From positions 1-42,150 of IMG/VR virus record IMGVR_UViG_3300025853_000194: 42,150 bases of DNA. One strand, written 5' to 3'. Shown one piece after another: positions 2 through 40,303 of this stretch. Under the pieces are notes generated by a model, which saw only the letters and a list, made by a program, of their open reading frames with translations, searched no databases and was not told the DNA's origin. This DNA comes from a virus. The translations under genes and the position numbers were made by a program. Numbering within the stretch: position 1 is the first letter of the stretch; every line of letters begins with the position of its first letter.

Positions 2-811
2 TCAGGATCCTCTGGTAACTCAGGCTCTTCAGGATCTTCTGGAACCTCAGGATCTTCAGGATCTTCAGGTAACTCAGGCTCTTCAGGATCTTCAGGTAAC
101 TCAGGCTCTTCAGGATCTAGTGGTTCGTCAGGATCTTCAGGATCCTCTGGTAACTCAGGTACCTCTTTCGTAGGAAGCATTACTGGTACAACCTCCAATG
201 GTGTACTAACCTATATCAACGCAACCAATAACCTACAGGTAGAGCCCAATGTAACCATAAGCTCCGGTAACCTAGTCTTGAGTAGCTCTACAGGAGCTGT
301 CACTCTTAACGGTGGTAATATAGGAGGAGCAGCTACTATTACAGCCACAGCATACTTAGTAGTTGGACAGGATAATGATACAGGTGGTATACAAATAACC
401 AAACCCACTACAACAACAACGATCCTCCCTGGTGCTGGACATAGGTTAGCTGCACAGTGGGGAAGTCAGGCTTCAACCACCGTTGGTGGTGTTTATGCGT
501 GGCAAGGAAACTGGAACACCGCAGCTCAGGCTAATAATGGAACAACTACCGCTGATAAGCTACTAGGTATTTGTCTCGACGGAGCTAGCGGTAAGGGTAT
601 GCTTCTGGAGGGTACTATGAGACTTGGTTATACCGTTGCAGGTAGTCCTGGCCCCGGTGATATATTATATCTCTCCGATGTAACCGCTGGAAGAATAACT
701 GCTACTAAACCTACCGGTGCTGGTGAGATTATTAGAATAGTTGGCTATATGATCGACCCATCCAATAATTACATCTTCTTTAATCCGGATGCTACATATA
801 TAAAGCTATAA
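2..811 (+). CDS. Collagen-like tail fibre / virion structural protein (5' truncated)
   Basis: The reading frame is open from the window edge, so the N-terminus is missing; 269 residues are visible. Residues 2-55 are 18 uninterrupted Gly-X-Ser triplets (X is Ser 12 times, Asn 4, Thr 2). They are followed by a beta-rich Thr/Ser/Gly segment and a C-terminal domain ending in a VGYMIDPSNN-type motif and aromatic residues, a style common at the C-terminus of T4-like phage structural proteins. Collagen-like triplets in phages usually form trimeric shafts of fibres, so a fibre or whisker role is inferred. The TTG at 278 is internal to the open frame and is not a credible start. Eleven bases separate it from the methyltransferase gene. 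The Ser-rich repeat is a plausible substrate for the glycosyltransferases encoded downstream; this is inference. Confidence 0.75.
   Translation, partial: SGSSGNSGSSGSSGTSGSSGSSGNSGSSGSSGNSGSSGSSGSSGSSGSSGNSGTSFVGSITGTTSNGVLTYINATNNLQVEPNVTISSGNLVLSSSTGAVTLNGGNIGGAATITATAYLVVGQDNDTGGIQITKPTTTTTILPGAGHRLAAQWGSQASTTVGGVYAWQGNWNTAAQANNGTTTADKLLGICLDGASGKGMLLEGTMRLGYTVAGSPGPGDILYLSDVTAGRITATKPTGAGEIIRIVGYMIDPSNNYIFFNPDATYIKL
5..166 (+). repeat. In-frame tandem repeat encoding 18 Gly-X-Ser triplets
   Basis: The DNA is built of 9-base units (GGN TCN/AAC/ACC TCN) with locally exact 27-base repeats. Every unit keeps the reading frame and encodes Gly-X-Ser, giving 30 Ser in 54 residues and no Pro. Near-identical copies suggest length variation by recombination or slippage, and the left edge may cut the array. 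Confidence 0.85.
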
Positions 812-821
812 CGATAATTGA

Positions 822-1394
822 ATGGCGATGGTTTATACTAACGAGAACCTTTCTTTTTTAAATGATAGGATAGTCTATAATGATAACGGAGTAGATTTTC
901 AGGTGATGATGGACTGGGAGAGGAATTTAATGAAAGCCTCCGCCGATTACGTGTGTCAGAACGGGGGTGATATACTAGAAATTGGGTTTGGCATGGGCAT
1001 ATCTGCTGGGTATATACAATCAAATAGTATAAATTCTCACACAATAGTCGAGAATCACCCTGACGTTATAGAGAGATTAAAGGAGTGGGCAACGGATAAA
1101 CCAAATGTCATTATAATAGAGGGTGGCTGGTATCAGAATTTGGAAAATCTCTCTGTATATGACGGTATTTTTTACGATACCTTCGGTGACTTGGATGTTA
1201 TGCATTTTGGTTCTGTACTTCCGTCGCTCAGTAAACCAGGTGGAATAGCTACGTGGTGGAATCCACTTAATCGAGAGGAGAATATATGGGATTTACCCAA
1301 CGTCGAGTATGATGTGTATGATGTTAACCCGCCACCTAATGAGTATTTTAATCACGATAAATATTATTTACCAAGATGCCGTCAGCAACTATAA
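822..1394 (+). CDS. Class I SAM-dependent methyltransferase, guanidinoacetate methyltransferase-like
   Basis: The protein has 190 residues. The SAM-binding motif I is clear (ILEIGFGMGIS, residues 51-61), followed by the acidic ribose-binding position (VENHP, 76-80) and the DGIFYDTFGD motif (about 114-123). This order and wording closely match the guanidinoacetate/arginine N-methyltransferase group (GAMT, RMT2), which methylates guanidino groups or protein arginine. In a phage tail-fibre region the likely target is a virion protein or a host surface molecule, but the substrate cannot be read from the sequence. The start is ATG 822 (GCGATGG follows); ATG 828 is a weaker alternative. The 3' end overlaps the next gene by 19 bases, which suggests co-translation. 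Confidence 0.75.
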   Translation: MAMVYTNENLSFLNDRIVYNDNGVDFQVMMDWERNLMKASADYVCQNGGDILEIGFGMGISAGYIQSNSINSHTIVENHPDVIERLKEWATDKPNVIIIEGGWYQNLENLSVYDGIFYDTFGDLDVMHFGSVLPSLSKPGGIATWWNPLNREENIWDLPNVEYDVYDVNPPPNEYFNHDKYYLPRCRQQL

Positions 1395-2077
1395 ATTCGT
1401 CAGCACAGGGAAGTATATTAACTGGTACAGCTTCTACCGGAATACATTTTATTTGGAAAGATGCTGTTCTTGCACCTAATGGGATTGTTCAGACATCAAG
1501 TGTTGCTAATCAGCAGGACATAGGTCCATGGGTTATTTCAGGGAGGAGTGGGAATAATTATCGTCTTGGTAGGACTTTTTGCTATTTTAATACTTCAACA
1601 TATGCAGGTACGATCACTGCTTTGTCCCTAGACTTTGGTTCTAGCGGAACTAGAGGAATTAATGACTATATAGTTTGCGAGAGTTATGCATTTAATAACG
1701 GAAACTCAGGCACACTTTCCCCTGGAGAATTTGATAGAAGCACCGGATGGGATGTAAGTACCACATTATCTAGTCAGCAATCATTCGTCGGTGGTCTCAA
1801 TACTGTTACCCTTAACGCCTCTGCGGTTGCCCTTGCTAATGGTGGTTTGCTCAATTTAGTGTTGATAGATTATACCTATGATTATCCCGACTCCCCTCCA
1901 GGTGTTGGTACTCACTACGGAACTATAAATGTGGGTACATCTTTTCAACTCGATATAACCTATACTGCAGGATTCGATAGTATAAATGGGACAACATATA
2001 CGGGTCTTAGTCAGGTAAACTCAGTAAATCGAATTGGAATTCAACCTATAGACGAGATTAATTCAATTCAGGCTTAA
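1376..2077 (+). CDS. Putative virion structural protein (beta-rich, unknown)
   Basis: The 233-residue product is rich in Ser, Thr, Gly, Asn and alternating hydrophobic residues, as in beta-structured phage fibre or baseplate appendage proteins. I recognise no specific family. It has no signal peptide, membrane helix or catalytic motif. The C-terminus carries short Ile/Asn repeats (VNSVNRIGIQPIDEINSI). ATG 1376 lies inside the end of the methyltransferase gene, a 19-base overlap. Its position between a fibre protein and modification enzymes suggests a fibre accessory or another acceptor protein. Confidence 0.55.
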   Translation: MPSATINSSAQGSILTGTASTGIHFIWKDAVLAPNGIVQTSSVANQQDIGPWVISGRSGNNYRLGRTFCYFNTSTYAGTITALSLDFGSSGTRGINDYIVCESYAFNNGNSGTLSPGEFDRSTGWDVSTTLSSQQSFVGGLNTVTLNASAVALANGGLLNLVLIDYTYDYPDSPPGVGTHYGTINVGTSFQLDITYTAGFDSINGTTYTGLSQVNSVNRIGIQPIDEINSIQA

Positions 2078-2137
2078 TCCGGGAGTAATGAAATATTATA
2101 GGACTATCCCTATATAATAGATTAAACTGTTCACCGT

Positions 2138-2722
2138 ATGCGAGTCAAATCCATTGTAATAGATGATTTCTATAAAACCCCGGGGGATGTAAGGAATTTT
2201 GCCTTATCTCAGGAGTATTCTATTGATGTTAATACAGGATTACTTAGTTCACAGCCTTTCCTTACTGGATCGATTCAGGATTCAATATCTGATGTTATGT
2301 TACCTGTATGTGGTGAAATTACAGGTTGGGGTAACAAAAAAAGTGGATCCTTTGGAATTTTGACTTCCCTTGATCCGATAAAGACGCATTTTGATACTAC
2401 CTCGGACTGGACCGCGGTTATATTTCTTACCCCTAACGCTCCTTCAGATAGTGGTATATCTATATTGAAACATAGAGAAACAGGGCTTAGAAAATACGGG
2501 GATCCTGTTCTTTCCGACGATGATCCAGTGGTATCTATAGTTAATAAATCTTTGCCCGATGTTACGAAATGGGAGATTGTTGACTCTTTTGCTAATATCT
2601 ACAACAGAATGGTGATATACCGCAGTGAATATTTTAGTAGGGTAACCAATAATTTTGGTTTATGTAGGGAAAGTGGTAGACTGTGTCAAACTTTTAGCTT
2701 TAGTACATCTAATCCGAAATAA
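2138..2722 (+). CDS. DUF6445-like protein (2OG-Fe(II) oxygenase fold), possibly inactive
   Basis: The 194-residue protein fits the pattern of DUF6445, a phage and bacterial family with a 2-oxoglutarate/Fe(II) dioxygenase-like fold. It has the VIDDFYKTPGDVRNFAL opening (residues 7-23), the proximal metal pair H84-x-D86 followed by a WTAVIFLTP strand (91-99), and the closing NRMVIY...NNFG...GRLCQTFSF block (156-188) with R181. At the position where I expect the distal metal-binding His, the residue appears to be Ser167, so activity is doubtful. A CTATATAATAG box lies upstream near 2110. Neighbouring glycosyltransferases suggest a part in modifying virion proteins, but this is inference. Confidence 0.55.
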   Translation: MRVKSIVIDDFYKTPGDVRNFALSQEYSIDVNTGLLSSQPFLTGSIQDSISDVMLPVCGEITGWGNKKSGSFGILTSLDPIKTHFDTTSDWTAVIFLTPNAPSDSGISILKHRETGLRKYGDPVLSDDDPVVSIVNKSLPDVTKWEIVDSFANIYNRMVIYRSEYFSRVTNNFGLCRESGRLCQTFSFSTSNPK

Positions 2723-2753
2723 AGAAATATAAGTAACCATAAAAAAACGAAAA

Positions 2754-3029
2754 ATGGCAGAATCCGAAATTAAATTACCAGAGGAAGAGTTTAGAGAAAT
2801 AGTTGAACTCCGTGATAGAATCAAGGAAAATGTGGAAATTCTTGGTAGAATATCGATTAGGAAGCATTTTCTAGAAATGGATCTATCCTCATTAAATACT
2901 GAGATGTCCTTGAATCTAAAGGAATCCGAGGATCTTAATACCAGAGAGAAGGAAGTAACTGAAAAAATAGTGGAAAAATACGGGGAGGGTAAATTAGACT
3001 TTTCCACTGGTGTTTATATAAAATCTTAA
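2754..3029 (+). CDS. Small charged coiled-coil protein, unknown
   Basis: The protein is 91 residues and strongly helical: Glu/Lys/Arg-rich heptads run from about residue 8 to 72 (EEEFREIVELRDRI onward), followed by a short polar tail (GKLDFSTGVYIKS). It has no Cys and no membrane helix. The leader is A-rich (AAAAAAACGAAAA) with no Shine-Dalgarno, and the stop lies 3 bases before the glycosyltransferase ATG. It may be an adaptor or chaperone for neighbouring fibre proteins; nothing in the sequence decides this. Confidence 0.5.
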   Translation: MAESEIKLPEEEFREIVELRDRIKENVEILGRISIRKHFLEMDLSSLNTEMSLNLKESEDLNTREKEVTEKIVEKYGEGKLDFSTGVYIKS

Positions 3030-3032
3030 ACC

Positions 3033-4079
3033 ATGTTTGCCTCGACAGAACTTCGTAAAGCTAGATATGGACTTTTACGGACCGTAGGAGAGCTGGAGGG
3101 AAGAATAAGAGAGCTTTCTGGGGGTAAACCTAGAATACTATTCATTGCTCCTCATTTGTCCACTGGAGGTATGCCCCAGTATTTATATAAAAAGATAGAG
3201 TGCTTGTATGATGATGCTGAGATATACTGTATACAATACAGCAACACCACGGATCATTATGTGGTACAAAGGGATAGAATTTCTAAAAAACTTGGTGATA
3301 ATTTTTACTGTTTGGGCGAGGATAAAAAGGAGATATTATCTCTTATAAATGAGATATGCCCTGACGTTATTCACTTTGATGATTTCGTTGAGTTTTTTGT
3401 GGAAGAATCCATTTGTGACGAGATATTCTCGTTAGATAGGCCATATTTCATATATGAAACCTGTCACAGCTCAAACGTTTCACCGGAGGATAAGAGATGG
3501 GTTCCGGATAAGATAGTAATGGTGAATCAATGGATGGTTAATAAGTTTTCATCCCTCGGCACCCCTCTGGATATCCTGGAGTATCCGATAGAGGATAATG
3601 AAAGACCTCCTAGAGATGAGGCCCTAGAGAAATTAGGGCTAGATCCATCTCTTAAGCACATTATCAACGTGGGTCTTTTTACACCAGGTAAAAATCAGGG
3701 CCTTCTTATAGAATTTGCCAGGATGATGACTGATTATCCTGTACAATTTCACTTCATAGGGAATCAGGCTCCTAATTTTCAATCTTACTGGGAACCCTTA
3801 ATGACGGATCTCCCAAGTAATTGCAAAATATGGGGTGAAAGAAATGACACGGATGACTTTTATGCTGCTTCGGATTTATTTGTGTTCACATCAAATTGGG
3901 AATTGAACCCTATAGTTATAAAAGAAACATTATCATGGAAACTCCCCATCATGATGAGGAGATTGGAGCCATATATGGATTTTTATGATGACAATCCACT
4001 TGTTTCTTATTTAGTTTCCAGAGGTGGAAACATAGGAGCAGATGTGGATAAGATAAAGGAAATTCTCGGATTTGCGTGA
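3033..4079 (+). CDS. GT-B glycosyltransferase, family GT4-like
   Basis: The protein has 348 residues. After a short basic helical leader, a Rossmann-like N-terminal domain begins at ILFIAPHLSTGGMPQYL (about residues 35-51), with the acceptor-domain glycine-rich turn typical of GT4. The C-terminal domain starts at HIINVGLFTPGKNQ, where the Lys of the GKNQ turn corresponds to the conserved phosphate-contacting Lys. It contains DDFYAASDLFVFTSNWE followed by the E-x7-E signature (E in NWE to E in IKE). The enzyme should be a retaining transferase using a nucleotide sugar; donor and acceptor are unknown. It directly precedes, and is probably translationally coupled to, the heptosyltransferase-like gene. 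Confidence 0.8.
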   Translation: MFASTELRKARYGLLRTVGELEGRIRELSGGKPRILFIAPHLSTGGMPQYLYKKIECLYDDAEIYCIQYSNTTDHYVVQRDRISKKLGDNFYCLGEDKKEILSLINEICPDVIHFDDFVEFFVEESICDEIFSLDRPYFIYETCHSSNVSPEDKRWVPDKIVMVNQWMVNKFSSLGTPLDILEYPIEDNERPPRDEALEKLGLDPSLKHIINVGLFTPGKNQGLLIEFARMMTDYPVQFHFIGNQAPNFQSYWEPLMTDLPSNCKIWGERNDTDDFYAASDLFVFTSNWELNPIVIKETLSWKLPIMMRRLEPYMDFYDDNPLVSYLVSRGGNIGADVDKIKEILGFA

Positions 4080-4080
4080 T

Positions 4081-5268
4081 ATGAAAAAAAGAGGAATAAA
4101 AGTATACTTAAATAACAGCAGGGCTTCACTAAAGCAATATGAAAGGCCGCTGAGGTTCAAATTTATCTTCGATAGGGGCCCAAAAATCGATACACTAAGT
4201 GGAACCGGAAATGCTGTCGTTAAATTTAGGGAAAGGGAATCTTCATCCTATACTTATGTGGGCGATACAAAGGCAGGATTATACACGCAGCTCTTTAGAA
4301 AGTGGTTATCCCCCTGGGTTGTGGAAGTTTTACGGGATGATGATCTAATTTATTCCGCTGATCTGGAGATGGATATACTAATGAACTCCAAAATTAATGT
4401 TCAATTGGACAGCTCCTCTCTGGGCGATACGATAGCATGGATTCCTGTAATACACAAGTTAATAGAAAAGTATGATTGCGATCTCTACGTAAATTCTTTT
4501 TGGAATGAGCTGCTATCCATTTTTTATCCTGACATCAGATTTCACCCCCCGGGGTATAGGGAGAATGGTACAAGTGCGTATATAGGTATCGGGTGGTACG
4601 AAGAGGATAATTTAGATTATCATAAGAGGGATCCTAGAACTATTCCTTTACAGCATGTAGCGGGAGATCAGCTAGGTATCGATGTTGGCTCCGAGGTTTT
4701 ATTTCCAGACACTCCAGCTTTGATTAGAGATTCCTCTCCTTCTATAGAAGGAAAGTATGTTTGCATTGCTCTAGATTCTACTGCTAATGCTAAACACTGG
4801 CACTATCCGCAGGGATGGCAGCAATTGGTTAATTACCTCGATTCCATCGGATATAAGGTGGTAGTCATACAGAAGCAGGCTGTAAATCTAGAGGGTGTTA
4901 TTGACAAAACCGGAGATGTTAACATAATAGATAGAGCAGTTGACATATATCACTCGGATTTTTTCATAGGCATAGGATCGGGACTTAGTTGGCTGGCTTG
5001 GGCACTTAAGAAACCTGTGGTAATGATTTCCGGTTTTTCTTTGCCTTATTGCGAATTTGAAACATTAAACTATCGCGTTATAAATAGGGATGTTTGTCAT
5101 GGGTGTTTCAACGACCCTGAACATAAATTTGATAAGGGTGATTGGAATTGGTGCCCTAGATTAAAGGAAACCCCGGATAGGTTTATATGTACCACCTCTA
5201 TAACTCCTCAAATGGTTATTGATAAAATAGATCTTCTTATTTCCGAGAATAATCTATCATCTTATTAG
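4081..5268 (+). CDS. Autotransporter-heptosyltransferase-type (TibC/AAH, BAHT family) glycosyltransferase
   Basis: The protein has 395 residues from ATG 4081; a TTG at 4072 would add three. An N-terminal beta-rich domain is followed by a GT-B, GT9-like core: LDSSSLGDTIAWIP (sugar-nucleotide fold start), KHWHYPQGWQQLVNYLDSIG, and FIGIGSGLSWLAWALKKPV. The C-terminus carries four Cys in the pattern C-x2-C-x15-C-x11-C (C339, C342, C358, C370; VCHGCFND ... WNWCPR ... FICTT). This architecture matches bacterial autotransporter heptosyltransferases such as TibC and AAH, which use ADP-heptose to glycosylate Ser on adhesins and bind iron through such a Cys finger. In this phage the target is likely a Ser-rich virion fibre. 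A heptose-kinase-like gene at 31529 supports a heptose donor. Confidence 0.8.
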   Translation: MKKRGIKVYLNNSRASLKQYERPLRFKFIFDRGPKIDTLSGTGNAVVKFRERESSSYTYVGDTKAGLYTQLFRKWLSPWVVEVLRDDDLIYSADLEMDILMNSKINVQLDSSSLGDTIAWIPVIHKLIEKYDCDLYVNSFWNELLSIFYPDIRFHPPGYRENGTSAYIGIGWYEEDNLDYHKRDPRTIPLQHVAGDQLGIDVGSEVLFPDTPALIRDSSPSIEGKYVCIALDSTANAKHWHYPQGWQQLVNYLDSIGYKVVVIQKQAVNLEGVIDKTGDVNIIDRAVDIYHSDFFIGIGSGLSWLAWALKKPVVMISGFSLPYCEFETLNYRVINRDVCHGCFNDPEHKFDKGDWNWCPRLKETPDRFICTTSITPQMVIDKIDLLISENNLSSY

Positions 5269-5335: not shown

Positions 5336-7879
5336 ATGAGCTTTACACCAGAGAATAGACCTCTTAAGAAGGGTATACCGGTTTACGACGGTAACGGTGA
5401 TCAGAGGAATCTGTCAGATCCAAGATACCGATACCAAGACGATCTTGCAAATACTACTAAAATACCAGAATCGTCCACTGATAATTACTATGGAACTACC
5501 GGTGCTGCATTGGCAAGAGCTGAGCAGATAGGATGTAATGGATATCACACTGCTCTAGCTTCGGATGGGGTTTACTACTATCTACCCTGTGAAACCCCTG
5601 AATGGTATACTCAGAGAATAGAGCAGCTAGAAAGCTCTCTGAATTTTACCTATATAGGAAATTACCGTGTTCTTTCCTGGGATACACCATTTCAGTATGT
5701 AAAGGAGCTTAAGGGATGGATAATAGATACCGCGGGAGCTGTTGTTTCCAACTCTGTTATATTGGATGGGCAATCAGATTCTGAGATCCCTAATGACATT
5801 GCTATAGATTTTAGGTATTCGGTTGACGGGAAAAGTTGGTCCCTTTGGTCTAATGTTGGAACTGCTCTAACTGGTCTTTCCCAAAACTATACATCCAATC
5901 TTGATTCAGATGACTTTATAGTAAACTTGGATCCGGAAAAACCATTTTATCCGGAGTTTAGGTTTACCTCAGTGATAGTGAACCCTGACGGTTCGATAGC
6001 ATATGAATCAAGGGAACCTATAGATCCCTCTGTGGTAATAGTAGATTTCGATCTCGATTTAGTTTACGCGACAGGACCAAGTGGTCCCTCTGATGTTATC
6101 ATAAGAAGGCCTGTACCAAATTGCTCTGATGAAAAGTCTAACCGTCCTGTTGTTTTTGATAATTGTAATTACACATTTGACCCTTATGCAATTAATAAGG
6201 CGGTAAATCTCTATCAGGATCTAAGTCTTGTTGTTAATAAGATATTTGGATTTGAGACTAATTATTATTCTGTACAACCACAGGCTAGGGGAAAGGACGT
6301 GGTTCTTAAGGAATATACTCTTTTCGATGTTGTTGATGAGAAATGTGTAAAGGTTGTGGTTCCTTCTAATCAATTTCCGGATAACAAGGTTAATTATGAT
6401 CCCTTCGGTATACAATTCGAGGAACCTTTTGAAATACACATAGACAAGACATATTTTGAAAGTATATTCGGTCGAGGATCTCAACCTAGGAAGAGAGATA
6501 TTATCTACTTTCCGCTAACTAATAGGATATACGAGATCAACTCAACCTATTTATTTAGGGATTTCATGTATTCCCCTGTTTATTTTAAGATAGAGCTAAA
6601 GAAGTACAGTCAGAAATCAAATACCTATTTCAGAGATCCTGCTTATAAGGAGGAACTCGATGGAATTGTGGTTAATACGCAGAAGCTTTTTGGTGCCGAG
6701 GTAAAGGATGAAGAAGAAAAGATTACAAAGCCACAACAGTATGTGACCTCGAGCCAGAGGAGGGAGGAGGATCCAACCAGATCTTACATATATGAAAAAT
6801 TACCAATAGTGGGATATGATCTTAATAACAATTGGACTATAGTGTTCAATAACTATTATGACATGGCTGATGCTTTTGTAACTGACAGTGAGTTCGTTTT
6901 TGAACCCAATAAATATAGGAATGCTATCAGATATAAAAATAGTCCTTATCTAGAGGAGGATGGCGAAATCTCATACACTTGTTGGTTCAGTTTAAAGAAT
7001 TACATAAATGAGAGCAGTCTTGCAAAAAAACCATTCTCTCCAGCTCCGATAACTAAGGTTTCTGAGAATTCCTCGCAGATAGTGTTCTCCTCATACCCTT
7101 ATAAGCATGGCCTATCACCTTTTTATTCTTTTGCTGAGAATCCGGAGGGCTATGTTTCGGTTAGAATTGACGATAACCACTCTGGTGGATATAAAGTCCT
7201 TTCCACACCCGATGAATATAAATTTAGTATATCTAACACCAATTTACCATACAGGGATAATAGTCCAACCTGGAAAATGCAGAAAGCTCAGGCTAGAAAC
7301 CTTATAGATGGAACCTACACCGATATAAACTCGGAGCTGAAGGGATTAAGAATAGATATGGTTCATTCTGGTAGTAACGACCCGGCAAATAACAATTATA
7401 TAGAGCAGGGCAGTATAGAGATAATTCTTAACGACCTTACCTATGATTCAAGACTCCAGTTCGTACCTGAACAAGGGGAATGGTATGGTCTGGTTGTTAA
7501 CGTATCTAATCGATATAAGCAGATGGGTATAAACATTTGGAAAATGTCATACGATCCCACAAATCCTTCTCAACAATCCAGTGACCTCGTCAAAGTTCAT
7601 GAGGATTATCGGGCTTTAACTAAATCTTATACATTCGATGCCCCGAGGGATGAAGAAACTAATTATGATAATCCCTTATATGGAACTAACAATAATTCTT
7701 ATAAGATATGGACATCACCCATACTGCTTAGCAATGTCAGGCTATTTAAAAACATGATAGATATAGATAAGCAATCTATAGTTCTTAATCAGAATGTCGT
7801 TAGAGATGAGCAGCTTGCTTATATAATAGATAATGCTAAGCCTAAGCTGATACTACCTAAGTTTGCTAGAAATAGATAA
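5336..7879 (+). CDS. Large virion protein with neck-like segment and concanavalin/LamG-like C-terminal domain
   Basis: The protein has 847 residues. The N-terminus (1-240) looks like a fibre or adaptor region with a YSVDGKSWSLWS beta-sandwich-like stretch. The middle (about 360-430) has SIFGRGSQPRKRDIIYFPL followed by NRIYEINSTYLFRDFMYSP, which recalls the RPxxGDLIYFPL...LFEI block of T4 neck protein gp14. The C-terminal ~330 residues (EDGEISYTCWFSL ... GEWYGLVVNVSN ... ILLSNVRLFKNMID) look like a lectin-type jelly roll. It lies just upstream of terminase, where T4 has genes 13-15. A neck/collar protein with a carbohydrate-binding whisker is my best guess; the gp14 link is tentative. Confidence 0.5.
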   Translation: MSFTPENRPLKKGIPVYDGNGDQRNLSDPRYRYQDDLANTTKIPESSTDNYYGTTGAALARAEQIGCNGYHTALASDGVYYYLPCETPEWYTQRIEQLESSLNFTYIGNYRVLSWDTPFQYVKELKGWIIDTAGAVVSNSVILDGQSDSEIPNDIAIDFRYSVDGKSWSLWSNVGTALTGLSQNYTSNLDSDDFIVNLDPEKPFYPEFRFTSVIVNPDGSIAYESREPIDPSVVIVDFDLDLVYATGPSGPSDVIIRRPVPNCSDEKSNRPVVFDNCNYTFDPYAINKAVNLYQDLSLVVNKIFGFETNYYSVQPQARGKDVVLKEYTLFDVVDEKCVKVVVPSNQFPDNKVNYDPFGIQFEEPFEIHIDKTYFESIFGRGSQPRKRDIIYFPLTNRIYEINSTYLFRDFMYSPVYFKIELKKYSQKSNTYFRDPAYKEELDGIVVNTQKLFGAEVKDEEEKITKPQQYVTSSQRREEDPTRSYIYEKLPIVGYDLNNNWTIVFNNYYDMADAFVTDSEFVFEPNKYRNAIRYKNSPYLEEDGEISYTCWFSLKNYINESSLAKKPFSPAPITKVSENSSQIVFSSYPYKHGLSPFYSFAENPEGYVSVRIDDNHSGGYKVLSTPDEYKFSISNTNLPYRDNSPTWKMQKAQARNLIDGTYTDINSELKGLRIDMVHSGSNDPANNNYIEQGSIEIILNDLTYDSRLQFVPEQGEWYGLVVNVSNRYKQMGINIWKMSYDPTNPSQQSSDLVKVHEDYRALTKSYTFDAPRDEETNYDNPLYGTNNNSYKIWTSPILLSNVRLFKNMIDIDKQSIVLNQNVVRDEQLAYIIDNAKPKLILPKFARNR

Positions 7880-13912: not shown

Positions 13913-14467
13913 ATGGCTGGTTTATCACATTATCAAAATTCATTAAATGCAGTGAATAAGTTTGAACCTGTATTCCTCAATCAGTTTGAGGTAACCGTGG
14001 TTCCTCCTTCTGCTGTAGCTGGTGGTCCTGTTTTATTGGAGCATGTTGTCTCTGTTGCAGGACTGGACGTTGATAAAAATCCTGGCTTCGTTTCTCAAAA
14101 GTATAAGTTTGCTAAAAGGAACTATGCGGGAGGTAAACCTGATACAACTACATTGGATCTTGGGGTAAAATTCACAGTAAACCTTGATGAGGCAAACTCG
14201 ATGTATGTATTTAAAACCTTAAGACAATGGACGGATCTGATCTATAATCCAATCACGGGTGCTCAGGGTATAAAAGCGGACTACACTGGAACTATAGTTA
14301 TATCTGTGTTCAACAAGAATGGCGATGTTTTTAGAAGAATTACATGTAAGGATTGTTTCCCTTTAAAAGCTATAGACCCCATGGAGCTCGAGTACATCAA
14401 CGGTACTAACCTCTATGAAATAAATATGACTTGGGCAGTTGATTACTGGCAGGATCTATTCCTATAA
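13913..14467 (+). CDS. Tail tube protein A, T4 gp19-like
   Basis: The 184-residue protein has the gp19 layout: MAGLSHYQNSLN start, FEPVFLNQFEV strand, a YKFAKRNYAGGKPD loop, LRQWTDLIYNPITGAQG, a GTIVISVFNKNGDVFRRI hairpin, and the ITWAVDYWQDLFL-type C-terminal strand. Subunits stack as hexamers to form the DNA conduit inside the sheath. The gene follows the sheath directly and is followed after 16 bases by a paralog of nearly the same length. Confidence 0.9.
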   Translation: MAGLSHYQNSLNAVNKFEPVFLNQFEVTVVPPSAVAGGPVLLEHVVSVAGLDVDKNPGFVSQKYKFAKRNYAGGKPDTTTLDLGVKFTVNLDEANSMYVFKTLRQWTDLIYNPITGAQGIKADYTGTIVISVFNKNGDVFRRITCKDCFPLKAIDPMELEYINGTNLYEINMTWAVDYWQDLFL

Positions 14468-14483
14468 AAAAACAGAAGCATAA

Positions 14484-15062
14484 ATGGCAGGTTTACCACA
14501 TTTTAATAATTCAAAAGCAGCTAGAAATAACTACGAACCAGTATTTCTAAACCAGTTTGAGGTCTTAATCACGCCCCCTTCTGCGATAACTGCTGCGAAC
14601 ACTACTTTTAACGGGGAGAGCATTTTAACACAACAAGTTAAAAATATAAGTGCGCTCCAGGTGGATATCCAACCCAGTGCTCCTGTAACACAGTACTATA
14701 AGTTTGCTGAAAGGAGATATGCTGGCGGTGAGCCATCAACTTCTGATGTACAGTTTACTGCATCTTTTGAGGTAAATCTCAGCGATAGTAACTCTATGAC
14801 GCTCTATAAGATACTGAGACAATGGTCTGATCTTATCTACAACCCATTAACTGGTGCCATGGGGCTTAAAAGGGATTATGTGGGCACAATGGTGGTATCC
14901 ATTTTCAATAAGCAGGGTGATGTCTTTAGAAGAATTACCTTAAATAATTGCTTCCCTGTAGAACCTATAAACCCAATGAATCTAAGTTATGACACTGGTG
15001 ATGCAATCTACACCATTGATACCACTTGGAAGTCTGATTACTGGAAGGACCTCTTCCTATAA
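14484..15062 (+). CDS. Tail tube protein B, tandem gp19 paralog
   Basis: The 192-residue protein matches the preceding tube protein along its whole length: MAGLPHFNNSK start, YEPVFLNQFEV, YKFAERRYAGGEP, LRQWSDLIYNPLTGAMG, FNKQGDVFRRIT, and TTWKSDYWKDLFL. An extra ~8-residue insertion near residue 35-45 (ANTTFNGESILTQQ) lengthens the first loop. It may be a second major tube component or a specialised tube-end or baseplate-proximal ring, as gp19-fold proteins gp48 and gp54 are in T4. High conservation of the inter-subunit strands argues that both copies are functional. Confidence 0.88.
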   Translation: MAGLPHFNNSKAARNNYEPVFLNQFEVLITPPSAITAANTTFNGESILTQQVKNISALQVDIQPSAPVTQYYKFAERRYAGGEPSTSDVQFTASFEVNLSDSNSMTLYKILRQWSDLIYNPLTGAMGLKRDYVGTMVVSIFNKQGDVFRRITLNNCFPVEPINPMNLSYDTGDAIYTIDTTWKSDYWKDLFL

Positions 15063-28278: not shown

Positions 28279-29892
28279 ATGGCAGGATTTACTGAAAGTC
28301 CACAGGGAAATCCCATATTTCAAAGGATTCGTGACTCCGTAAAGGGGCTAAGTAACTTTGGGATGCGCTATGGTGATATGGTTATTAAAAACTCCCAGGC
28401 TATAGGACAAACCGAGGCGGAGTTTATGAAGAAGGGTAATATAGAGGATGAAACCATGCTCTATTCTCTCGGACGTCAGGATACTTCAACGCGACAATTC
28501 ATAGGTTATTATGATAAGGACTACGTGGGAAAGAGAGACTACCTTCGTAAGTTCTCACTCAACCCTGAGATTGAATATATCATCGATACAATTTGTGACG
28601 AGTCAATTACTTACGACCCATACAACTTTTTTGCATATCCGGCTTTTCTGAATCTTACCGATGTTAAGGATAAAGTAAAAGATAGGATAGAATCTAACTA
28701 TAAGAAGCTGTATGATATGTTTGGCTTTGCTGATGATATAACAGCTTGGCAATACTTTAGACAACTTATAATAGATGGATTTTTAGCATTTGAGATTGTC
28801 TATGATGATAGTGGCAAAGAGATTATAGGATTTAAGGAATTAGATTCAACTACGCTCATGCCCTCCGTTGAAAAACAGAAGGATGGAACTTGGTTGAATG
28901 TATGGTATCAATATCCGAAAGACCAGAATAAGAGGAGGATGCTATATGATTCCCAGGTAATATACATTTCATATGCCAAGGGTAATTCGGTATCTAGGGT
29001 AAGCTATACTGAAAGGCTTATTAGACCATATAATGTATTAAGAATAATTGAATATACAAGGGTGATATGGTCTGTCATGAATGCTTCATTTAGAATGAAG
29101 ATGACAATACCTATTGGTTCTAGGTCCCCACAGAAGTCCATGCAAACCCTGGGGGAACTTATGAGTATTTATAAGGAGGATATAAGGTTTAATGACGAAA
29201 GTGGTGAATTGACAGTTGATGGTAGACCTAAGATACAGTTTTATAAAAACTATCTGATGCCTTCTGGTGTAAATGGTACACCTCAGATAGAACCCCTTAA
29301 TAATGCAGGACCTAATCTTAATGACCCACAGCCACTAGCATATTTCTTTGATAAATTAGTGCAGGAATCTAAAATACCTTTCTCTAGATTCCAGGGTCCA
29401 GATGGTGGTTCAATTGGAAATTATAGTAACGGTGCGGAAGGTCTCGATAAGGAGGAGATAAGGTTTTCTAAATTTATTAGCAGGCTAAGATCAATTTTTC
29501 AGGATATATTGATTAAACCGCTCTGGATCCAGATGTGTAGGGATTTTCCAGAGCTTGAGAAAGATTATCTGTTTAAAAGCCAACTTGGTCTAAATTTCGT
29601 TTCCGATAACCCATTCAAGGTTAACCAAGAGATAGAAATCATGCTAAAGAAGAAGGAATCCATTGATTCCCTTTACGCTCTCACTGATGATGACGAGAAA
29701 CCCTTCTTCTCACTTGCATATCTGATTGAGAGCTATCTAGGTATGACTGATGATGATATAAAAGCTAATAAAGAGGCTAAAGATAAAAGAGCTGAGGAGA
29801 AAAAGAAGGAGGAAGAGAAAAATAAGGAAGAGGGTGGAGAAGAATCTGGGGAATCCGCTCCAGAGGAGGAAGAAACCCCACCTGAAACCTAA
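28279..29892 (+). CDS. Portal vertex protein A, T4 gp20-like
   Basis: The 537-residue protein has the gp20-type portal layout. It shows IKNSQAIGQTEAEF near the N-terminus, KDYVGKRDYLRKFSLNPEIEYIIDTICDE, AWQYFRQLIIDGFLAFEIVYD, QVIYISYAKG, a stem segment (TLGELMSIYKEDIRFND ... QFYKNYLMP), FFDKLVQESKIPFSRF, and LRSIFQDILIKPLWIQMCRDFP. The C-terminal 45 residues are a Glu/Lys-rich tail. Portals are dodecameric rings that initiate head assembly and let DNA pass. The next gene is a full-length paralog. A GATATATAGTG box lies about 60 bases upstream, inside the previous gene. Confidence 0.88.
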   Translation: MAGFTESPQGNPIFQRIRDSVKGLSNFGMRYGDMVIKNSQAIGQTEAEFMKKGNIEDETMLYSLGRQDTSTRQFIGYYDKDYVGKRDYLRKFSLNPEIEYIIDTICDESITYDPYNFFAYPAFLNLTDVKDKVKDRIESNYKKLYDMFGFADDITAWQYFRQLIIDGFLAFEIVYDDSGKEIIGFKELDSTTLMPSVEKQKDGTWLNVWYQYPKDQNKRRMLYDSQVIYISYAKGNSVSRVSYTERLIRPYNVLRIIEYTRVIWSVMNASFRMKMTIPIGSRSPQKSMQTLGELMSIYKEDIRFNDESGELTVDGRPKIQFYKNYLMPSGVNGTPQIEPLNNAGPNLNDPQPLAYFFDKLVQESKIPFSRFQGPDGGSIGNYSNGAEGLDKEEIRFSKFISRLRSIFQDILIKPLWIQMCRDFPELEKDYLFKSQLGLNFVSDNPFKVNQEIEIMLKKKESIDSLYALTDDDEKPFFSLAYLIESYLGMTDDDIKANKEAKDKRAEEKKKEEEKNKEEGGEESGESAPEEEETPPET

Positions 29893-29902
29893 GAAAGAAT
29901 AG

Positions 29903-31495
29903 ATGGCAGGATTTCTAGATAACATACAGGAGAGAACATTCTTAGGTAATCTGTACCGCAACCTGAGTCGTATTGGAAGATTTGGTATGAAGTATGAGGA
30001 TATGGTAATTCGTAATTCTCAAGCTATAGGACAGACTGAGTCTAATTTTTTCGATCAGCAAGGAACTGGATTTACTGAGAATTCTGCTTTTAGGTGGACT
30101 CTTGGATACCAGGACACTAAGATTAGAAAGTATATCGCATATTTTGATAAGGATTATGTAGGTAAGAGAGATTTTTTGCGAAAGTTTTCTCTAAATGGTG
30201 AGATAGATTTTATACTTGACACGCTTACTGACGATGCGATAAATTATGACGATAAGAATTTCTTTTCGTATGCTAAAGTAGCCAATACTGAGCTCAAGGA
30301 GGAAGTTTTGGATGGTATAGATAGCAGATTTAGGAATCTTTATATGATGTTTGGCTTCCAGCAATCCATATTGGCTTGGCAATATTTTAGACAGTTCTTA
30401 ATTGATGGATTTTTAGCCTTTGAGATAGTATATTCTACTGATGGGAAAAAAATAGTTGGTTTTAAAGAGTTAGACCCCACTTCCCTTCAACCTGCCACGG
30501 AGCCTCAAGAAAACGGGGAGTTCAAGCAGATTTGGATCCAATATCCCGAGGATAATAAAATGACGAGAAAGCTTAGGGATGAGCAGATAATTTATCTGTC
30601 TTACGCTAAAGGGAACACGATTTCCAGGGTTAGCTATGTCGAAAGGCTTATAAGATCATATAACATACTGAGAATAATGGAGAATACCAGAGTCATATGG
30701 AATGTCATGAATGCTTCATATAGACTTAAATTTGTTATTCCTGTTGGTACTCAATCTCCTCAAAAAGCTATGAACACTCTGGGTCAGTTAATGTCTATCT
30801 ATAAAGAGGATATAGAGCTTAATGATTTTTCGGGGGAGCTTACAGTAAATGGAAGACCTAAAGTCCAATTCTATAAGAATTACCTATTCCCTGAAAAGGA
30901 TGGACAATCCCCTGAGATTTCCACATTGGATCCAGCAGGACCTGATTTCAATGTCATGGAAAATGTTGTTTACTTCTACAATAAGCTTAAATTGGATTCG
31001 AAGATTCCTTATGCTAGGTTCTCTTTCCGTGGTGGTACTCCAGCCAATTATCAAATAAGCATAGACCAGCTGGAGAGGGATGAGATAAGATATGAGAAAT
31101 TTCTAACCAGACTAAGGTCCATTTTCCAGGAGATATTAATCAAGCCATTGTACATACAGATGTGCTTGGACTATCCACACTTGGCTAAGGATCGGTCATT
31201 CAAAGTTAACCTTGGACTTAACTTTATGAGGGAGAATGTATTCGAGCAGTTCATACAATTGCAAAACTATACTAAAAGAGCTTCTTTCGTAAATGATCTC
31301 GGGGGTATGAATCAGAAGATAGGCGAGGAAGAGGTTCCTTATTTTGATAAAGAATTCCTGATAAAGAGGTGGATGGGATTAACCATGGATGAGTATAAGA
31401 AAAACGAGCAATATAAAGAGCGTGAAGATAAAGAAGCTGAGAAGAAGGCTAAGGAATCCGGTGGAGAGGAACCGGAGGGTGAATTTACGCTATAA
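29903..31495 (+). CDS. Portal vertex protein B, tandem gp20 paralog
   Basis: The 530-residue protein is collinear with portal A: IRNSQAIGQTESNF, KDYVGKRDFLRKFSLNGEIDFILDTL, AWQYFRQFLIDGFLAFEIVYS, QIIYLSYAKGNTISRVSYVERLIR, TLGQLMSIYKEDIELND, FYNKLKLDSKIPYARF and LRSIFQEILIKPLYIQMC. All blocks are retained and neither copy is truncated, which argues against decay. Differences concentrate in the middle insertion and the acidic tail. A hetero-dodecameric portal or two alternative portals are possible. It lies 10 bases after portal A. Confidence 0.88.
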   Translation: MAGFLDNIQERTFLGNLYRNLSRIGRFGMKYEDMVIRNSQAIGQTESNFFDQQGTGFTENSAFRWTLGYQDTKIRKYIAYFDKDYVGKRDFLRKFSLNGEIDFILDTLTDDAINYDDKNFFSYAKVANTELKEEVLDGIDSRFRNLYMMFGFQQSILAWQYFRQFLIDGFLAFEIVYSTDGKKIVGFKELDPTSLQPATEPQENGEFKQIWIQYPEDNKMTRKLRDEQIIYLSYAKGNTISRVSYVERLIRSYNILRIMENTRVIWNVMNASYRLKFVIPVGTQSPQKAMNTLGQLMSIYKEDIELNDFSGELTVNGRPKVQFYKNYLFPEKDGQSPEISTLDPAGPDFNVMENVVYFYNKLKLDSKIPYARFSFRGGTPANYQISIDQLERDEIRYEKFLTRLRSIFQEILIKPLYIQMCLDYPHLAKDRSFKVNLGLNFMRENVFEQFIQLQNYTKRASFVNDLGGMNQKIGEEEVPYFDKEFLIKRWMGLTMDEYKKNEQYKEREDKEAEKKAKESGGEEPEGEFTL

Positions 31496-31528: not shown

Positions 31529-32299
31529 ATGATGAAGGTTTTAGTAGTAGGCGAGCTTTGCGTAGATAGGTTCGTTTATGGGAAAGTAAACAGGATGTGC
31601 CCAGAAGCACCTGTGCCTGTTTTAAATCCTATTGAGGTCATAGAAAACAACGGAATGGCGGGAAACGTTGTTGACAACTTAAATTCGTTAAGCGATGATA
31701 TAGAGGTTGTCCATTGGCACCAGAACAATAAGCTAGAAAAAATTAGATTTGTTGAGAAGAAGAGCAATCATATGATCGTTAGGGTCGATGAGGGAGAAAC
31801 CTCCCCAATAGATTCCTTTCCCTTCATGTCATCAGAAAAAAGAAATACCATAAATGAGTCGGACCTTGTAATAATTAGTGACTACAATAAGGGATTTCTA
31901 AACTCCTCAAGTATAAAGCAGATAGCAAGCCAAGGAGGATTGGTTCTCATGGACAGTAAAAAGAAATTAACCGAAGATCTCATAGAGGATATCACTTTCA
32001 TAAAGTTAAACGAGATTGAATATGGGAACAACAGGGAATTAGCTGATAGATATCCCGAAAAATTTATAATAACCCTAGGATCTGGTGGAGCTAAATATAA
32101 CGGGGTTACTTATCCAAGTACAAACCCACAGGATACTATAGATGTGAGCGGAGCTGGGGATACCTTTATAGCTACGTTTTCCTTGAAGTATCTGAAAACC
32201 GGAGATATTGAGAGGTCGATAAAGTTTGCTAATGATGCTTGTGCTAATGTGGTAAATAAAAAGGGTGTTGCAGTACCGGATTCTTCATTTAGGATATAG
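31529..32299 (+). CDS. PfkB-family sugar kinase, HldE/RfaE heptose-7-phosphate kinase domain-like
   Basis: The 256-residue protein begins VVGELCVDRFVYGKVNRMCPEAPVPV (6-31), close to the GDxxLDRYWYGxxxRISPEAPVPV phrase of the D-glycero-beta-D-manno-heptose-7-phosphate kinase domain of HldE. Also present are NGMAGNVVDNL (41-51), the ISDYNKG block (116-122) and the catalytic DVSGAGDT (205-212, base D211). It is shorter than the bacterial domain (about 320) and lacks the adenylyltransferase half. It would make heptose-1,7-bisphosphate for ADP-heptose synthesis. This fits the heptosyltransferase-like gene at 4081. The start could be ATG 31529 or 31532. A terminator follows. Confidence 0.8.
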   Translation: MMKVLVVGELCVDRFVYGKVNRMCPEAPVPVLNPIEVIENNGMAGNVVDNLNSLSDDIEVVHWHQNNKLEKIRFVEKKSNHMIVRVDEGETSPIDSFPFMSSEKRNTINESDLVIISDYNKGFLNSSSIKQIASQGGLVLMDSKKKLTEDLIEDITFIKLNEIEYGNNRELADRYPEKFIITLGSGGAKYNGVTYPSTNPQDTIDVSGAGDTFIATFSLKYLKTGDIERSIKFANDACANVVNKKGVAVPDSSFRI

Positions 32300-38585: not shown

Positions 38586-39464
38586 ATGATATTAAGCAAA
38601 AACACCAATAACATTGGGTATGTCTCATCCCCCTCTGAATTAAGCAATCGCGAATATTCGTGTGTGGATCTACTCGATTTTATTGTTGGTAGAGCAGAGA
38701 GAGATTCTAACCTTGGCTTAAGTATTACCTGCATTGAGATCCCTAGCAATTTTATATTTCCTGATTTTTCAAATTACGATGATTCTGGTGAATCTGATCT
38801 CTTACTCAGGATCTCCCGAGTTATAAGATCTGGGCAAAGATTGTTCTTTTATTTGCCCTCTTATTTTTTTCTCGGCTCCCAGATTCCAGATGTGGTTGAA
38901 AAAACCAGAATACTTTTGGTAAATCTAGCTAGATTTTTGGAGATGGTTGGGATTTCCTATAGGTCTATTGGACTGCGTGTTGGTAGTGCTTATGGTATGA
39001 GAAGGGTGACCATGAAGAGATTTTGTAATGAGTTATTAGACCTCGGTGCAGATGTAGCTGGTTTGGTCACTGTAATGAATGACGAGAAACCTAGTCTTTT
39101 CTCTGTAACCGATCTACTATCTGGGGTTTATTACGAAACACATATACCGATAACCTTCAGGTTCTTGGCTCATTCTTTTAATTCAGGTAATCTATCATAT
39201 AGGGAGGCAATATTCTTAAGCTCTTCGACTTGGGAGAAATCCGGTATTCCTGTTGTGATCCACTCAGAATCCTCTGAGGTTGATGATGATGGGTTTTTTA
39301 TCTCCCCAATCCCTTCTGATTTTTTAGAATACCGAATACCAACCTTTGGACTTTGCTTTGATTGTGTAATTGAATCCAACGGTGGTGAGAAATCATGTTT
39401 GAAGTACATGAGTGAGTGTAATTCCTTACGTCCTATGGTAATAAATAAAATTTCGCGCAAATAG
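38586..39464 (+). CDS. UV damage endonuclease (UVDE/UvsE)-like TIM-barrel protein, probably degenerate
   Basis: The 292-residue protein follows the order of UVDE: an N-terminal region with LSNREYSCVDLLDFIVGRAERDSNLG, a FFYLPSYF strand, an ISYRSIGLRVGSAYG strand-loop, NDEKPSLFSVTDLL (UVDE: LENDDxxFTxxDLL), IPITFRFLAHSFN (UVDE: hPVVxDxHH), LSYREAIFLSSSTW and GIPVVIHSESSE (UVDE: xKxHxSSP). At two places where UVDE has metal ligands (the Glu of LEND, the His of IHPG) other residues stand (Met; Val/Gly), so catalysis is doubtful. It heads a repair cluster with an Fpg/Nei glycosylase. Confidence 0.65.
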   Translation: MILSKNTNNIGYVSSPSELSNREYSCVDLLDFIVGRAERDSNLGLSITCIEIPSNFIFPDFSNYDDSGESDLLLRISRVIRSGQRLFFYLPSYFFLGSQIPDVVEKTRILLVNLARFLEMVGISYRSIGLRVGSAYGMRRVTMKRFCNELLDLGADVAGLVTVMNDEKPSLFSVTDLLSGVYYETHIPITFRFLAHSFNSGNLSYREAIFLSSSTWEKSGIPVVIHSESSEVDDDGFFISPIPSDFLEYRIPTFGLCFDCVIESNGGEKSCLKYMSECNSLRPMVINKISRK

Positions 39465-39511
39465 TTTTTTCTTTGCGTTACTAATTCTTATCATTGTAAA
39501 AAATATTAAAA

Positions 39512-40303
39512 GTGCCAGAATTAGCTGAATTAAAACTAACCGCGGACTACGTAAATTTCCTATCTGAGGGTAAGGTTTTCTCTCATATTACAAAGAATCC
39601 CGAGCATAAATGGAAGGAGGTGAAGTTTAATGACTTTACCATACGTGCGGAGAGCAGGGGTAAGGAGCTTAAGCTAAAACTAGATCCGGTGGGAGGAGAA
39701 GAATCCAGGGATCTCATTATGACCATGGGGATGGGTGGAAATTTCCAATGGGCTGATAAAGACACTCAAATAAAGCATACGCACCTTTTCTTTCACACCC
39801 CTGGAAATGAACATCTAGCTTTTGTTGATATCAGAAGATTTGGTAAGTGGAAGTGGGGTAACTGGAATGAAAGTAGGGGACCAGATCCTACCACCGAGTA
39901 TGAAGATTTCCGTGTGAATGTAATACGTAATCTTGGAAAGGTATCGTTCAATAAGCCCATATACGAGATGCTGATGGATCAGAGATACTTTAACGGTATT
40001 GGAAATTACCTCAGAGCTGAAATTTTGTATCGCATACCCGGGGCTAATCCTTTTTTATCGGCTAGGGAGTTTATAGTGAACCATGGGGATCGGCTGTTCG
40101 AGCTCTGTAAAGATATACCCCTGCATGTATATGAGATAGGTGGAGGTACTATAAAAGATTGGGAAAATCCCTTTGGTGGAAAGTCCAACATCTCCGATTT
40201 TATGAAATGCTACGGCAATCCTGATATGCTAAGACTATCTGATCGGGGAGGGAGGACATTTTGGTACGATCCTAAATGGAAATTAGAAACTGTTTTTGTA
40301 TGA
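39512..40303 (+). CDS. Fpg/Nei-family DNA glycosylase with zincless finger
   Basis: The 263-residue protein starts at GTG 39512, giving the essential N-terminus M-P2-E3-L-A-E (Pro2 is the catalytic nucleophile, Glu3 the acid). K51 (SRGKELKL) is the beta-hairpin Lys, D106-I-R-R-F-G equals the DxRRFG block, and YFNGIGNYLRAEILYRIPGANP (159-180) is the H2TH element. The C-terminal finger (MKCYGNPDMLRLSDRGGRTFWYDPKW, 231-256) keeps Arg248 but has only one Cys, so it cannot bind zinc in the normal way, as in NEIL1-type zincless fingers. It should excise oxidised bases. Its 3' end overlaps the exonuclease gene. Confidence 0.88.
   Translation: MPELAELKLTADYVNFLSEGKVFSHITKNPEHKWKEVKFNDFTIRAESRGKELKLKLDPVGGEESRDLIMTMGMGGNFQWADKDTQIKHTHLFFHTPGNEHLAFVDIRRFGKWKWGNWNESRGPDPTTEYEDFRVNVIRNLGKVSFNKPIYEMLMDQRYFNGIGNYLRAEILYRIPGANPFLSAREFIVNHGDRLFELCKDIPLHVYEIGGGTIKDWENPFGGKSNISDFMKCYGNPDMLRLSDRGGRTFWYDPKWKLETVFV

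Follow-up and report, generated by a model that had tools for sequence, protein, structure and literature searches.

TibC and AAH, of the bacterial autotransporter heptosyltransferase (BAHT) family, act on autotransporter adhesins and place heptose on serine (for TibC, PMC4358343). The catalytic base of TibC is D110, its donor contacts are T226, K230, R286 and W305, and its four cysteines lie at positions 339, 342, 358 and 370; the enzyme glycosylates serine, not threonine (PMC4358343). Here, we describe a relative of these enzymes encoded from position 4081 of a 42,150-nucleotide stretch of viral DNA (IMG/VR virus record IMGVR_UViG_3300025853_000194, positions 1 to 42,150), hereafter the window. 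The initial annotation, made from the letters alone, had placed the gene in a phage, and the portal, terminase, sheath, tube and neck genes of the window, like its source in a virus record, agree with that origin. We judge it fairly likely that the enzyme puts a sugar on serines in a collagen-like fibre of the phage itself.

Modified collagen-like proteins have been described in other settings. The Mimivirus hydroxylase/glucosyltransferase L230 adds sugar to a collagen-like protein of the virus that encodes it (PMC9614988), but it belongs to another enzyme family and places glucose on hydroxylysine in a virus of amoebae, whereas the phage enzyme would place a probable heptose on serine in viruses of bacteria. 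Bacterial collagen-like proteins such as BclA form G-X-Y filaments whose O-glycans are proposed to favour hydration and stability; the same work (PMC8968730) describes no enzyme of the BAHT kind acting on them. Phage HldE-like kinases and nucleotidyltransferases are known among the viral enzymes of nucleoside diphosphate (NDP)-heptose synthesis, whose purpose was called unsolved (PMC11573728); in the loci analysed here, some of these genes are linked with a gene resembling those of protein O-heptosyltransferases and with a candidate acceptor. No paper joining the TibC/AAH family with collagen-like proteins or phages was found in the literature searched, which excludes subscription papers and preprints. 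A putative fibre-modifying enzyme of the TibC type is widespread in phages and apparently undescribed in the literature searched.

A TibC/AAH-like enzyme with a shortened thumb

The mechanical open reading frame (ORF) of the enzyme opens at TTG 4072, with an ATG at 4081 directly after the stop codon of a glycosyltransferase family 4 (GT4) gene. Translation probably starts at the ATG, since the proteins of close relatives open with M-K-[ND]-[RK]-G at the same point. The product scored 255.3 bits (E 8.9e-76) against TIGR04414 (hepto_Aah_TibC, NCBIfam), above the curated cutoff of 200, and a phmmer search of the PDB returned TibC (4rap) as the nearest solved structure by sequence (E 2.2e-46), at an identity of ~30%. 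An AlphaFold (AF2) model built from 21 phage sequences (mean predicted local distance difference test score, pLDDT, 87.9) predicts the N-terminal beta-barrel and the GT-B catalytic core of the BAHT enzymes (PDB 4RAP, 4RB4). Its top Foldseek match in the PDB was again TibC 4rap (E 1.3e-29, template modelling (TM) score 0.82/0.84, 380 columns). The lipopolysaccharide (LPS) heptosyltransferases WaaC and WaaF have the GT-B/GT9 core and a donor site of the ADP-heptose class in common with the phage enzyme, but they lack the iron finger and the beta-barrel and act on the lipid A core. Their TM scores were only ~0.4-0.5, and other GT9 enzymes trailed TibC at ~0.5. Against TIGR02193, an LPS heptosyltransferase-type model, the product failed with 25 bits (cutoff 185). 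Fold and family score thus rule out a GT9 enzyme of the WaaC/WaaF kind. The enzyme had no match in PHROGs and so lies outside that reference set; at least 580 relatives were counted in IMG/VR.

The TibC residues D110, T226, K230, R286 and W305 and the four cysteines are all kept in 15/15 unique sequences of the clade that holds the window enzyme (the window clade). The catalytic base lies in an LGD motif, as in TibC and AAH. Numbered from the ATG, the cysteines of the phage enzyme are C339, C342, C358 and C370, figures that match those of TibC by coincidence, and the site, which is predicted to bind iron, is kept in 76/76 unique homologues from bacteria and in 102/109 of the other viral ones. 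TibC P300, which sets heptose stereoselectivity, is replaced by glycine in the phage enzyme and by serine in AAH, which takes both epimers. The larger departure is in the beta-hairpin thumb, which is about nine residues shorter than that of TibC, with the region of the tip residues F265 and V266 deleted or shortened; in TibC these two residues hold the dodecamer together and are required for activity.

A maximum-likelihood tree covering 109 sequences (quick search, with support by the Shimodaira-Hasegawa-like approximate likelihood ratio test, SH-aLRT, only) had a fully supported split. On one side stood 27 bacterial sequences, of which 26 have a full-length thumb, and on the other 82 rows comprising the window, 72 other phage and nine bacterial sequences; three of the phage rows are contigs binned in bacterial genomes. 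The enzyme is encoded in each of the phage contigs L098, L099 and L101, binned into Flavobacteriales, Winogradskyella and Chloroflexi metagenome-assembled genomes, and is accompanied by a collagen-like fibre in L098 and L099.

The gene, its GT-B core and the exact C-x2-C-x15-C-x11-C spacing reported in the initial annotation are therefore real, as read directly in the sequence and borne out by TIGR04414 and the predicted fold. Comparison with the TibC structure, the four-cysteine site and the active-site residues, the check named beforehand, upheld the TibC/AAH-type assignment as to family, fold and residues; the full thumb and the autotransporter partner that a classical member would have are absent. 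Since sequence, fold, active site and iron finger agree but these two features do not, the product is a relative of the TibC/AAH (BAHT) family, in a short-thumb branch, rather than a classical member. It probably works like TibC.

Linkage of the enzyme to collagen-like fibre genes

In place of an autotransporter, the partner of the phage enzyme is a collagen-like G-X-S fibre, so that the pairing of a BAHT-type gene with a repetitive, serine-rich acceptor, here a candidate one, is shared with TibC and AAH. The fibre ORF at the 5' edge of the window starts SGSSGNSGSSGSSGTSG... and carries a (G-[SNT]-S)n repeat in approximately its first 54 residues, followed by a C-terminal domain with similarity to the tail fiber of a Flavobacterium phage (E 6e-6). 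It matched Pfam Collagen (PF01391) with 35.5 bits (E 8e-9; gathering cutoff 27.2). A relative of this fibre (L002:2-4759) has 1585 aa and 462 G-X-Y triplets.

G-X-Y repeats occurred in 73/160 viral loci of the enzyme versus 0/80 clamp-loader loci from the same phage lineages, at matched mean locus lengths (13.3 and 13.4 kb, respectively), and in 0/37 sugar-kinase control loci. After clustering of the enzymes, a serine-rich, proline-poor fibre lay nearby in 46/90 clusters at 90% identity and 33/61 at 70%, versus 0/117 control loci (Fisher p 4e-21 for 46/90, a guide only, as the controls were unclustered). Many of the fibre-negative enzyme loci run off the end of their contig, and the window, too, is broken inside the repeat. 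Among 9,656 triplets, Y was serine in 82%, X was threonine in 51% and serine in 36%, and proline made up 0.3% of Y. The phage repeats are nearly proline-free and dominated by serine in Y, unlike bacterial collagen-like proteins overall, which are reported to have 19% proline in X and 32% threonine in Y (PMC8968730). In the reverse test, 10 of 40 contigs retrieved by repeat DNA alone carried the enzyme above cutoff, and in nine of these 10 the fibre was no more than 5.4 kb from it, even on contigs of 170-299 kb. The pair is also present in the isolated Microcystis phage Mel-JY01 and in a 735-kb environmental phage record. In Mel-JY01 (PP395634.1), the 1016-aa collagen-like ORF (2-3049, + strand) is unannotated; the record lists two hypothetical proteins on the - strand over most of that interval. 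Two other phage contigs, L502 (G067) and L509 (G084), hold three or four clustered TibC-like ORFs near a collagen-like fibre. No AIDA-like autotransporter was found in the 160 viral loci or in the window, and we rejected an autotransporter as the target in phages.

The linkage extends to bacterial loci, whose counts are inflated by related species. Short-thumb bacterial enzymes (27-32 residues) had a (GSS/GTS)n-repeat neighbour in 8/10 loci and an AIDA neighbour in 0/10, whereas full-thumb enzymes had an AIDA-type autotransporter neighbour in 22/53 loci (six confirmed by Pfam) and a G-X-Y neighbour in 0/53. The repeat proteins beside the short-thumb enzymes seem to bear a signal for secretion or of the lipoprotein type. 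In three loci the repeat and enzyme genes are close together, with spacings of ~12 (L108), ~40 (L132) and ~7 bases (L143); L132, one of the eight, comes from the named strain Methylobacter luteus IMV-B-3098. Because the same split is seen in bacterial chromosomes without phage structural genes nearby, the tail-cluster neighbourhood is unlikely to be its cause. These patterns suggest that a single enzyme family may act on two kinds of substrate, beta-helix adhesins and collagen-like rods, a division that follows one structural insertion in part. We rejected thumb length as an exact guide to the acceptor, since the rule holds in bacteria but some phages combine 36-38-residue thumbs with fibres.

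Proposed fibre glycosylation, donor supply and competing explanations

Modification of the phage's own virion proteins, one of two targets proposed in the initial annotation, thus has strong genetic support in the linkage to serine-repeat fibres; the other, host surface proteins, gained none from this analysis. We infer the acceptor serines, the order of the steps and the benefit to be as follows. Once made in the infected cell, the fibre would receive sugars in the cytoplasm, where the TibC-like enzyme would act on many of its Y-position serines, while an HldE-type kinase would increase the amount of heptose phosphate that the host provides. The GT4 could extend or co-modify the fibre glycans, and the modified chain would form a long, hydrated rod and become part of the virion. 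Its coat of sugars would keep the proline-poor collagen-like stalk hydrated, stiff and protected, a role that hydroxyproline plays in animal collagen. The sugar is probably D-glycero-D-manno-heptose from ADP-heptose. If so, a large group of phages would use on their own fibres a class of enzyme otherwise known only for bacterial adhesins, and viruses of bacteria would have an equivalent of the collagen glycosylation of mimivirus; the stability of a nearly proline-free collagen repeat would be explained, and at least some viral heptose-synthesis genes would have a use, the question open in PMC11573728. A wider version is possible but doubtful. In this version, dense O-heptosylation of Y serines would stabilise and armour the triple helix of a proline-poor collagen made by many phages and by a small number of bacteria, Methylobacter luteus among them. 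The short-thumb TibC branch would have exchanged the beta-helix adhesin for a collagen-like rod, and viral heptose-nucleotide genes would exist partly to feed it.

The candidate for donor supply in the window is a kinase like HldE domain I, with the PfkB catalytic GAGD motif at residue 208. It scored 128 bits (E 4e-37) against TIGR02198, below the cutoff of 345, and full-length clade relatives reached up to 313; its best PDB match was the heptose-7-phosphate kinase 4e84 (E 7e-13). An HldE-type kinase was present in 12/12 other window-clade records examined. Two divergent forms (~27-29% identical) share one site in the clade, flanked by portal and DNA ligase genes (that of the window kinase; L082-L086), and it looks as if one form had been replaced by the other. 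In L474/L475, a related enzyme, a nucleotidyltransferase and a kinase overlap as one operon. Other viral branches have a conserved triad of cupin, nucleotidyltransferase and HldE-like kinase (L226:6953-8455, L463, L466, L469, L486, L088); the cupin has weak matches to D-lyxose and mannose-6-phosphate isomerases and might replace GmhA as sedoheptulose-7-phosphate isomerase.

Several observations weigh against heptosylation of the fibre. The window holds only the cut end of the fibre gene. The linkage is one-sided, with 30/40 fibre-bearing contigs (many of them fragments) lacking the enzyme, and some phage enzymes have both a 36-38-residue thumb and a fibre. GmhA was found in none of 46 records and a heptose nucleotidyltransferase in none of the window clade; a complete phage-encoded ADP-heptose pathway was rejected on these grounds, and the donor would have to come at least partly from the host. 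The likeness of sheath, neck and fibre to those of Bacteroidota phages points tentatively to a flavobacterium as that host, and an HldE nucleotidyltransferase scored above cutoff in 0/61 genomes of the flavobacterial family. In the sister phage clade, the HldE-type kinase was present in 0/6 records; the kinase is therefore not a constant partner of the enzyme, and would be a boost rather than a requirement. Finally, the R286 position is T, V, L or I in many viral homologues outside the window clade, which may use a different donor. The loss of R286 and the flavobacterial negative also speak for another sugar on the same fibre, a hexose or some other nucleotide-activated sugar such as a CDP-sugar in the branches without R286, as does the L226 nucleotidyltransferase, which lies beside a homologue of the R286-lacking type and among solved structures is closest to cytidylyltransferases. 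For the window enzyme we consider such a donor unlikely, because its clade retains every donor contact of TibC and an HldE-type kinase in 13 records (the window and 12 relatives).

Two other explanations concern the acceptor. O-antigen modification by phages is known biology, and the enzyme and the GT4 might alter host LPS or surface proteins and so block superinfection. The glycosyltransferases and rfaE genes of pelagimyophages have been read in this way (PMC7029224). The predicted fold is, however, of the protein-modifying TibC type and not that of WaaC (TM 0.82 versus ~0.5), no AIDA-type autotransporter accompanies the enzyme in any of the 160 viral loci, and its gene is placed between the fibre and the neck/terminase genes, all of which make a host-surface target improbable. 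The acceptor could also be another virion protein, with the fibre merely a neighbour in the structural cluster. The neck-domain gene (5336-7879) directly 3' of the enzyme is the most constant neighbour within the window clade and would be one candidate. Outside that clade, however, it is the G-X-S repeat protein that is the shared neighbour, in both orientations, and the G-X-S pairing recurs in bacterial chromosomes without a phage neck gene, so we regard this explanation as very improbable.

Other genes of the window

The GT4 gene (Table 1) has homologues in 146 loci, with identities of 68-82% within the clade. GT4 and TibC-like enzyme are adjacent in the window and fused as one gene in other phages (L226:4768-6966), which argues that the two act together. 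Small genes similar by eye to the one directly 5' of the GT4 stand at the equivalent place in L499 and L474. A tailoring role for the phrog_1644 protein can only be guessed at.

Table 1. Features of the window discussed in the text.
Feature	Position	Strand	Basis
Collagen-like fibre gene, 3' end, cut by window start; proposed acceptor	2..811	+	Translation; Pfam Collagen
phrog_1644 protein (DUF6445-like, below cutoff)	2138..2722	+	Homologues in 26 loci
Small probable coiled-coil protein	2754..3029	+	Directly 5' of GT4
GT4-type glycosyltransferase	3033..4079	+	PF00534 E 2e-10; stop immediately before the enzyme's ATG
TibC/AAH-like protein O-glycosyltransferase (probable O-heptosyltransferase)	4081..5268	+	395 aa; TIGR04414, PDB TibC, AF2/Foldseek
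Asp equivalent to TibC catalytic base D110 (LGD motif)	4426..4428	+	Alignment, invariant column; role from PMC4358343
Region of TibC beta-hairpin thumb, largely missing	4855..4935	+	27 residues versus 36 between two anchor positions
Arg equivalent to TibC R286 (adenine contact)	4933..4935	+	Kept in window clade; contact in TibC from PMC4358343
Iron-finger-type four-Cys site C-x2-C-x15-C-x11-C	5095..5190	+	Direct sequence; invariant in alignment; iron binding predicted
HldE-domain-I-like kinase	31529..32299	+	TIGR02198, GAGD motif, PDB 4e84

In the 230-kb relative L019, the fibre gene lies several kb upstream of its GT4, and the interval holds genes that by eye resemble glycosyltransferases, methyltransferases, sulfotransferases and adenosine phosphosulfate (APS) kinases. 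Glycosyltransferase-, FkbM-methyltransferase-, sulfotransferase- and APS-kinase-like genes likewise separate fibre and GT4 in L499:4931-9998 (a 230-kb relative), hinting at a sulfated or methylated glycan. Elsewhere in the window, two portal protein genes stand in tandem (28279-31495, both phrog_213), as do two tail-tube-like genes (13913-15062, both phrog_32623/phrog_45). A DNA repair pair, a UvdE-like UV endonuclease and an Fpg/Nei-like glycosylase, is encoded at 38586-40303.
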